This document shows positions 5,092-31,337 of a DNA stretch of 33,474 bases, piece by piece. Each line of letters opens with the position of its first letter. Positions within the stretch are counted from its first letter, which is position 1. A program made the position numbers and the translations under genes. Source of the DNA: Candidatus Altarchaeum sp. (GTDB lineage: Archaea > Altiarchaeota > Altiarchaeia > Altiarchaeales > Altiarchaeaceae); contig JAGTWP010000005.1 of assembly GCA_018260755.1 (NCBI GenBank), positions 1 to 33,474 of the forward strand, in the 5' to 3' direction. The notes beneath the pieces are model-generated. The model was given only the letters and a program-made list of their open reading frames with translations. It had not been told where the DNA came from and searched no databases.

Positions 5092-5206
5092 GTAACTATT
5101 TAGCCACTCAAAAAATTAAGGGTAAATTTTTTGACTTTTTTAAAATTTTCACATGAAAAGTTATTTATAAATTTTCAGTAAATTTTTGTACCCTCTGAAT
5201 AGTCAC
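5092..5206 (-). mobile_element. MITE (115 bp), TIR GTAACTATT(C/T)AG, TSD AAAAATTT
   Basis: Ends gtaactatttag / ctgaatagtcac; perfect 8-bp direct repeat AAAAATTT at 5084-5091 and 5207-5214; inverted homologue at 20151..20349. Confidence 0.9.
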
Positions 5207-9972: not shown

Positions 9973-10247
9973 ATGGATTCACTGAAAGTAAAAACAGCAA
10001 AAAATATTGGAATCGTGTACGGAGCAAACATGATAAGTATGCTTTTTGGATTAGTTACAATAACAATACTCGCGAGATTACTCACACCAGAGGATTATGG
10101 TCTTGTTGCTTTAAGCGGAATCATCTTAGCGATTGTATTATTATTCCAGGACCTTGGGCTTGGAGCAGCATTAGTTCAGAGACAAAAAGACATTGATGAA
10201 GCAACAAATGTTGTTTTTTACTCAACAATTCTCATTAAATTTATTCG
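9973..10247 (+). pseudogene. Polysaccharide flippase (Wzx/MOP-type) N-terminal fragment
   Basis: MDSLKVKTAKNIGIVYGANMISMLFGLVTITILARLLTPEDYGLVALSGIILAIVLLFQDLGLGAALVQ; coding stops where the dispersed repeat begins. Confidence 0.8.
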
Positions 10248-10398
10248 CTCTTATGTTGATTTTCACTGATAGAGATAAACACATTGTTGAAGTTTTGCAA
10301 ATTTTAAAATTCAAGCACAAATTCAAATATAAATCCAAGTTCAAATACACTATAAAATGCAAAACACAAAAGTTCAATGTTCATAGGTATATGAGCGA
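10248..10398. repeat. Dispersed about 151-bp repeat copy 1, containing an imperfect inverted repeat
   Basis: High identity with 31186..31337; internal GTTTTGCA...TGCAAAAC stem (10292-10299/10358-10365). Confidence 0.9.
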
Positions 10399-10408
10399 TT
10401 AAAAATTA

Positions 10409-10600
10409 GGCTCATATTTTTAAGAGAGTGATACGCTTAAAATGATGTTAAAATTTTCAAAAATTGTCGATTTTTTAGATATTGTAAAAAGTACAAAAAA
10501 ATAATGATCTTATTAATGGCTTGCGACACTATTTCAATATAATTATGAGGTATATAATTTATAACAAATATAATTAATCACTCTTTAAGAAATATGAGCC
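10409..10600. mobile_element. MITE (192 bp), 24-bp TIR GGCTCATATTTTTAAGAGAGTGAT, TSD AAAAATTA
   Basis: TIRs match at 21 of 24 positions; perfect 8-bp TSD AAAAATTA at 10401-10408 and 10601-10608. Confidence 0.92.
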
Positions 10601-10820
10601 AAAAATTAAGTGGAATGAAAGCGATGAAATTTTGTACGGAAGATTTATTTTGCTGCGGGATAATGAAACATTCAGTGAAAATTTTACCTTTACCGCAAAT
10701 ATTAAAAATACTACGCAAAACACGGTCAAAGACAATAAAAAGCTGGAATTTTTACTATATAAAGACGATAATAGCGAAATTTACAGGAGGTTGCATTTGT
10801 GGATAGATGTGAAAATTTAA
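10601..10820 (+). pseudogene. C-terminal remnant of DUF1616-like protein interrupted by MITE
   Basis: KIKWNESDEILYGRFILLRDNETFSENFTFTANIKNTTQNTVKDNKKLEFLLYKDDNSEIYRRLHLWIDVKI*; KLEFLLYKD...YRxLHLWIDV is typical of DUF1616 C-termini. Confidence 0.6.
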
Positions 10821-10869
10821 AAGTTCCCTCCATAGAAGGAAACTTTTGTCTTTTATTTCCCTCCATATA
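10810..10869 (+). terminator. 60-bp terminator-like repeat copy 1
   Basis: Stop codon context, hairpin AAAAGTTCCCTCCATAGAAGGAAACTTTT followed by T-rich tract; 57/60 identical to 12271..12330. Confidence 0.6.
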
Positions 10870-10982
10870 GATTTATTTTCTCATAATCCAATTTTTATAT
10901 ATTTTTATATATTTTTATAACCTAAATTTTTATTATTTATTTGTTCTTATTTATTTGTTCATTTATTTGTTATTATTATAAA

Positions 10983-12281
10983 ATGGTGCCAAGAGATATA
11001 TGGATTGAAATAATAAAAGACTTTCAACAGAGGGAATTACCTGACATTATTGAAAGAGATGTTAAAATTCCAACAGATATTCCAATAAAAAGAGTAATTA
11101 CTATTATTGGTCCGAGAAGGGCTGGAAAGACATACATCATGTTTCAACTGATAAAACAGATAAGCAAAAAAATTCCCGAAAACATGATTCTTTACATAAA
11201 TTTTGAGGATGATCGTCTGATAAATGCTGATGTTAAGGACTTGAGGAATATGCTTGACATATTTTACGAAATTTATCCCGAAAACAAAAATAACAAGGTT
11301 TATTTGTTTTTTGATGAAATTCAGAATATTGAAAACTGGGAGAAATTTACAAGGGCAATAATGGATTCGGAAAAAGTGCAGCTCTTTGTTAGTGGTTCGT
11401 CCTCAAAAATGTTAAGTGAAGAAATAGCAACATCATTGAGAGGAAGAGGTCTAACCTATAAAATACTGCCATTTTCCTTTGCAGAAATATTAAAAGCAAA
11501 AAATTTTGTTCCTGAAAAATTCTTATCATCAGGCGATAAGGCAAGGTTACTAAATTACCTGGATGATTATTTGTATTATGGAGGTTATCCTGAGACAGTA
11601 CTACTTCCACAGGAAAGAAAAAAAATAATAGGAGAAATATTAAACACTACAATATACAGAGATATAATTGAAAGACACAACATAAGAAACATAAAGATTG
11701 CAAAAATTATGCTTAATCATTTGTTCACTTCAACAATATTTTCCGTGAATAAATTTTACGGTTTTTTGAAAACAACAGGGTACAAAGTTAGTAAGAATAC
11801 AATATATAATTATTTTGAATATTTTCGCGACTCACTCGTGGTTTATCCGTTAAGAAAATATTCAGCAAGTTATAGAAAAATTGAGTCATCTTTGCCTAAA
11901 ATTTATTTGATAAGCAACGGCTTACTTTCTGTTACGGACATCACAGACAAAGGACGACTCATGGAAAATCTCGTTTTTGTTGAATTAATGCACAATAGCT
12001 TTAAACCAAATGAAAACATTTTCTACTATCTAACAAGTTCTGGTAAAGAAGTAGATTTTGTGATTGTTGAAAATAAAAATGTAAAGCAACTGATTCAGGT
12101 TTGCTATGATTTAAGCGATTACAATACAAAGGAAAGAGAAATGTCTGCATTGATTAGATGTAGTGATGAATTAAAATGTAATAATTTACTGATAATAACT
12201 TATGATTATGAAAATTTAGAAAATTTTGATGGAAAAAAGATAAATTTTATTCCCTTGTGGAAATGGTTGCTGAAAATTTAA
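10983..12281 (+). CDS. AAA_14/DUF4143-type archaeal ATPase
   Basis: Walker A IIGPRRAGKT, Walker B VYLFFDEIQN, VSGSSSKMLSEEIATSLRGRGLTYKILPFSFAEIL; C-terminal VDFVIVENK nuclease-like DUF4143 signature. Confidence 0.9.
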   Translation: MVPRDIWIEIIKDFQQRELPDIIERDVKIPTDIPIKRVITIIGPRRAGKTYIMFQLIKQISKKIPENMILYINFEDDRLINADVKDLRNMLDIFYEIYPENKNNKVYLFFDEIQNIENWEKFTRAIMDSEKVQLFVSGSSSKMLSEEIATSLRGRGLTYKILPFSFAEILKAKNFVPEKFLSSGDKARLLNYLDDYLYYGGYPETVLLPQERKKIIGEILNTTIYRDIIERHNIRNIKIAKIMLNHLFTSTIFSVNKFYGFLKTTGYKVSKNTIYNYFEYFRDSLVVYPLRKYSASYRKIESSLPKIYLISNGLLSVTDITDKGRLMENLVFVELMHNSFKPNENIFYYLTSSGKEVDFVIVENKNVKQLIQVCYDLSDYNTKEREMSALIRCSDELKCNNLLIITYDYENLENFDGKKINFIPLWKWLLKI

Positions 12282-12330
12282 AATTTCCTTCCATAGAGGG
12301 AAACTTTTGTCTTTTATTTCCCTCCATATA
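12271..12330 (+). terminator. 60-bp terminator-like repeat copy 2
   Basis: TTTCCTTCCATAGAGGGAAAC hairpin followed by TTTTGTCTTTTATTT; homologous to 10810..10869. Confidence 0.6.
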
Positions 12331-12334
12331 AAAT

Positions 12335-12625
12335 TTAAATATCCAACAAAAATTTAAAATCAGAAAATTCTTCTGTCTGCTCTTCTTCGTTTACTTCAAC
12401 CTTGCGGACATACGAAAACAAAGGTCCTTTTTTGCATAATTTTATAATTTCACCAATACTTTTTTCATCTCCTTGAAAAACCGCCTCAACCTGCCCGGCT
12501 CTTTCACCGTTGCAGATATTTTTGACAAAGCCCTTTAAATTTAGTTCTTTTGCATTCTTTTCAACAAACCATCTGAACCCGACACCCTGTACAATTCCCG
12601 AAACAAAAACACGAACTCTTTCCAT
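12335..12625 (-). CDS. acyP: Acylphosphatase
   Basis: RVRVFVSGIVQGVGFRWFVEKNAKELNLKGFVKN. Confidence 0.95.
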   Translation of the reverse strand: MERVRVFVSGIVQGVGFRWFVEKNAKELNLKGFVKNICNGERAGQVEAVFQGDEKSIGEIIKLCKKGPLFSYVRKVEVNEEEQTEEFSDFKFLLDI

Positions 12626-20150: not shown

Positions 20151-20349
20151 GTAACTATTCAGAGGGTACAAAAATTTACTGAAAATTTATAAATAAATTT
20201 TCAATCTTAAAAAATATTTCAAATATTTTTTAATACCTGCGATTTTCAAACTTGTTTGAAAATACACGAACGAAGTGAGCGTAAAATTTCAAAAAATACC
20301 AAAAAGTCAAAAAATTTACCTTTAATTTTTTGGGTGGCTGAATAGTTAC
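20151..20349 (+). mobile_element. MITE (199 bp), TIR GTAACTATTCAG, TSD TATTTAAT; homologue of 5092..5206
   Basis: Ends gtaactattcag / ctgaatagttac; perfect 8-bp TSD TATTTAAT at 20143-20150 and 20350-20357. Confidence 0.93.
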
Positions 20350-31185: not shown

Positions 31186-31337
31186 CTCTTATGTTAATTT
31201 TCACTGATGAAGATAGAATACATTATTGAAGTTTTGCAAATTTTAAAATTCAAGCATAAATTCAAATATAAATTCAAGTTCAAATACACTATAAAATGCA
31301 AAACACAAAAGTTCAATGATAATAAGTATATGAGCGA
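31186..31337. repeat. Dispersed about 152-bp repeat copy 2
   Basis: Homologous to 10248..10398, same orientation; contains the same GTTTTGCA...TGCAAAAC inverted repeat. Confidence 0.9.

Follow-up and report, generated by a model that had tools for sequence, protein, structure and literature searches.

Archaeal MITEs from known insertion sequence (IS) families are multicopy internal-deletion derivatives that have terminal inverted repeats (TIRs) in common with their IS partner, and differing deletion joints are the pattern expected of MITEs that arise in this way and move in trans (PMC3852290). Among the IS families, members of IS1595 usually generate 8-bp target-site duplications (TSDs) and, except for the IS1016 group, carry an N-terminal zinc finger (PMC8101967); the duplications are often A/T-rich (PMC8101967, PMC12561309), as are the 8-bp repeats of ISApl4 (PMC12561309). 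The literature that we searched held no relevant paper on MITEs or insertion sequences of Altiarchaeum. The element considered here, which has GGCTC ends, represents a new family; the kind of element is known and ordinary.

The element lies in a 33,474-nucleotide stretch of Candidatus Altarchaeum sp. DNA that was analysed as a whole (the window; G000:C30:1-33474) and that belongs to a draft genome of 1.32 Mb in 78 contigs, 85% complete. The features of the locus, in window coordinates, are these:

10246-10397, plus strand: neighbouring CGCTC-family MITE, ~152 bp, with about 40 genome copies; a likely partner transposase, on C34 (L072), shares its left end
10399-10820, plus strand: what remains of the C-terminal part of a DUF1616 gene (10399-10408 and 10609-10820), LKIKWNESD...WIDVKI and stop, with 79% DNA identity to the intact syntenic gene on G003:C15
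10401-10408, plus strand: left 8-bp TSD, AAAAATTA, the sole 8-mer pair around a 192-bp interval in the window
10409-10600, plus strand: GGCTC-family MITE, non-autonomous, IS1595-type, 192 bp, with an identical copy at G000:C71:23597-23788 and an empty site in G003
10409-10432, plus strand: left TIR, GGCTCATATTTTTAAGAGAGTGAT
10409-10551, minus strand: 143 bp matching the parental IS1595-like element at its 3' end, with the last 37 transposase codons and the stop, 100% identical to C63:707-849
10552-10600, minus strand: 49 bp matching the parental IS at its 5' non-coding end, 98% identical to C60:17805-17853
10577-10600, minus strand: right TIR, GGCTCATATTTCTTAAAGAGTGAT
10601-10608, plus strand: right 8-bp TSD, AAAAATTA

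A MITE with 24-bp TIRs and a perfect 8-bp TSD had been called in a sequence-only reading of the window, and both calls stand. The TIRs agree at 21 of 24 positions, an agreement for which the expectation in shuffled sequences is zero, and the duplication is perfect over its 8 bp and placed exactly at the TIR ends. The window offers 33,266 possible intervals of 192 bp, and the MITE interval alone has the same 8-mer on both sides. The element is short and has no transposase gene, its transposase leftovers amounting to the last 37 codons. Phage and plasmid collections gave no match to the element, and the exact TIR did not occur among viral contigs.

The parent is recognisable from other contigs. 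Because the MITE consists of the 49-bp 5' non-coding end of an IS joined to the last 143 bp of that IS, it is an internal-deletion derivative, and with both ends kept, both TIRs were kept as well. GGCTC ends are tied to a transposase at four places, three of them (C63, C60/C66 and G001:C165) in elements that are decayed or broken by contig ends. At C63:239-849, remnants of the transposase N- and C-terminus precede a GGCTC 3' end with 143 bp identical to those of the MITE, and the 5' tip of this decayed IS has been replaced by GTAACTATTCAG-type sequence. The end of C60 and the start of C66 overlap by 42 bp, so that a GGCTC 5' end leads into an open transposase fragment of 159 aa; G001:C165 carries a GGCTC 5' TIR and then the same transposase start within a single contig, and on C47 a 141-bp derivative encloses the transposase start between two GGCTC TIRs.

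The 159-aa fragment matches PF12760 (Zn_ribbon_IS1595) with 34.9 bits against a cut-off of 25.4, and positions 1-85 of NF033547 (transpos_IS1595) with an E value of 5e-12; the C-terminal remnant that adjoins the MITE-identical part upstream matches positions 177-215 of NF033547 (E 4.5e-4). These NF033547 matches lie in separate remnants and fall under the 75-bit whole-protein cut-off, as is expected of a truncated protein in the case of the 159-aa fragment. The catalytic domain PF12762 (DDE_Tnp_IS1595) was not detected in the genome itself. An autonomous IS with the same ends had been proposed earlier as something to look for. Decayed and contig-broken elements with an IS1595 transposase are present, but no intact autonomous or single-ORF parent was found in the 85%-complete draft, in which many contigs end inside these repeats. 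Peptide patterns confirmed no relatives of the transposase in genome_contigs and viral_contigs. Phylum-wide, an IS1595-type element with related ends (CGCTCATSTG) was seen only at 39% identity, on G025:C83 (L096). This nearly complete element, whose C-terminal part is shifted to a different frame, comes from a genome of another family within the phylum.

The GGCTC element shares with the IS1595 family (the zinc-ribbon groups, not IS1016) ends that occur on related transposase remnants, a GG start and an 8-bp A/T-rich duplication, and differs in being a 192-bp MITE without transposase whose parent is known here from decayed or broken copies. Its likeness to its IS partner reaches far beyond the TIRs (49 + 143 bp), further than is common among the archaeal MITEs described from known IS families (PMC3852290), and the host is Altiarchaeum, for which we found no MITE report in the literature searched.

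The genome-wide search for the TIR pair that the sequence-only reading had suggested gave 25 occurrences in G000 against none for the reversed pattern, besides the 100% identical 192-bp copy on C71. Three congeners have 4 to 5 occurrences each, and the reversed-pattern controls gave 0 in three of these four genomes and 1 in the remaining one. Partial or variant MITE copies elsewhere in G000 number ~20, many of them cut by contig ends. Other derivatives have different deletion joints, with lengths of 155 bp (C33), 141 bp including the transposase start (C47) and ~246 bp (G002), which is the pattern expected for internal-deletion MITEs moved in trans. A 40-bp motif of the MITE 3' half has matches in Candidatus Altiarchaeales archaeon A3 and Candidatus Altarchaeum sp. 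CG2_30_32_3053. Neither the identical C71 copy nor any other two-ended copy has an 8-bp duplication, and so the TSD evidence comes from the window copy, backed by the sister CGCTC family (5/26). Inspection of flanks gave no match by which broken contig ends could be paired via common 8-bp sequences. On G000:C46 (L006 1577-1782), a GGCTC MITE copy is split by an insert of ~200 bp whose ends resemble GACATGTTGCGAAATA / CTATTTCGCAACAACTC, and C55 has an end similar to that of this insert.

The termini had been described as unlike those of the GTAACTATTCAG family, with at least two unrelated MITE families present, and this is borne out: the genome holds more than two MITE-like families, and one of them, the CGCTC family with ends CGCTCTTATG / TATGAGCG, abuts the GGCTC element. 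The neighbouring CGCTC copy stops 3 bp before the left AAAAATTA duplication, its final bases giving 'YER' codons, and a second copy in the window occupies 31186-31337. Perfect duplications, all of exactly 8 bp, flank 5 of the 26 two-ended copies of this family, as compared with 5/650 mismatched left-right pairs taken as a control. The two families have in common a similar terminal motif (GCTCATAT), 8-bp TSDs and an IS1595-like partner transposase, whereas they differ in internal sequence, in the ~40 copies of the CGCTC family and in its partner transposase, which is only 44% identical. The CGCTC partner is likely to be the IS1595-like transposase on C34. The window copy at 10246-10397 has no duplication and joins a polysaccharide flippase gene that it truncates (9973-10245; Pfam PF13440/PF01943) to the DUF1616 remnant, a junction that suggests a rearrangement. 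A further repeat family, GTAACTATTCAGCC, has ~57 occurrences in the genome (reversed control 0), with window positions at 5092-5105 and 20151-20349.

The gene interrupted by the MITE had been labelled a DUF1616-like remnant, and an intact relative confirms the label. The DNA to the right of the MITE is 79% identical to G003:C15, where the orthologue is a 300-aa protein with a PF07760 score of 233.7 bits; the remnant in the window matches weakly, at 23 bits under a cut-off of 31.6. Gene order is conserved between the window and G003 (DUF1616 - acylphosphatase - proS), and in this genome of the same genus the insertion point is uninterrupted, reading CTAATAATTA directly followed by AATGG, as against TTAAAAATTA and AGTGG in the window. 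The empty allele sought in relatives therefore exists, within an intact and syntenic gene. Removal of the element and one TSD had been said to restore a continuous frame, which is genuine from LKIKWNESDEIL on (G003 counterpart LIIKWNESDEIL); since 10246-10397 is a separate CGCTC repeat, however, 'YER' belongs to that repeat, and the DUF1616 part begins at LKIKWNESD. The sequence-only reading would have been contradicted if other copies were lacking and relatives had the whole interval as ancestral DNA; copies exist, and the G003 site is empty. The identical copy, the 25 termini and the empty site together confirm both the MITE call and DUF1616 as the host. The host gene was probably already broken when the MITE landed.

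At 10983-12281 an AAA_14/DUF4143 ATPase gene lies between two copies of a ~60-bp terminator-like motif (near 10810-10876 and 12271-12338). G003 has one motif copy and no ATPase gene at this locus, so that in the window the gene was apparently inserted along with duplication of the motif.

Sequence evidence establishes how the MITE is built, its family, its parent and its empty site, and from these we infer an order of events and a mobilisation in trans. The MITE is almost certainly the internal-deletion product of an IS1595-family IS of this Altiarchaeum lineage, presumably moved in trans into the DUF1616 gene. Such an IS would have lost its interior, leaving 49 bp of the 5' end and 143 bp of the 3' end; the shortened element, with both TIRs and no functional transposase, would have been unable to move alone. 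An IS1595-family transposase supplied in trans would then have bound the GGCTC ends, and insertion into an A/T-rich site of the DUF1616 gene would have duplicated 8 bp.

We considered how far other origins could account for the same interval. Ends that start with GG and duplications of 8 bp are features of ISL3 members too, and ISL3-like transposases had been proposed for the GGCTC ends on this ground. This general fit does not carry over to the genome, where PF01610 has no match while its controls are positive in four genomes, and where the same termini border remnants of IS1595-type transposases instead; descent from an ISL3-family element is extremely improbable and already largely refuted. 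Equally remote is a host repeat, such as an RNA gene or a regulatory or BIME-like hairpin, in place of a transposon derivative. The single strand does fold better than shuffled sequences (z -4.15), but the excess is mainly the TIR stem, and the window gave no Rfam match and no RNA gene. A host repeat predicts presence at orthologous sites, whereas G003 lacks the element; the TSD, the empty site, the ends common with transposase-bearing elements and the several internal-deletion lengths (141, 155, 192 and about 246 bp) all fit transposition.

The window copy might also owe its present state to recombination or gene conversion between copies rather than to simple insertion alone. Exchange between copies may happen, since the C71 copy is 100% identical yet has no TSD, and the adjoining CGCTC MITE likewise lacks a TSD and links unrelated genes. 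Against this, the TSD of the window copy is perfect over 8 bp and abuts the TIR ends exactly, and the orthologous G003 site is uninterrupted; we consider such a contribution very unlikely.

Insertion in trans of an IS1595 derivative, the reading that we prefer, corrects the family assignment of the MITE (IS1595, not ISL3). The repeats, in which several contigs end, also help to account for the fragmentation of the draft (78 contigs). It is conceivable, if rather unlikely, that cross-mobilisation occurs between the two Altiarchaeum MITE families, which would each be paired with a diverged IS1595-type transposase, and that both families jointly cause much of the gene decay and rearrangement in the genome. 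The locus provides a clean case, supported by an empty site, of how IS1595-type elements give rise to MITEs in an archaeal phylum that has been little studied.
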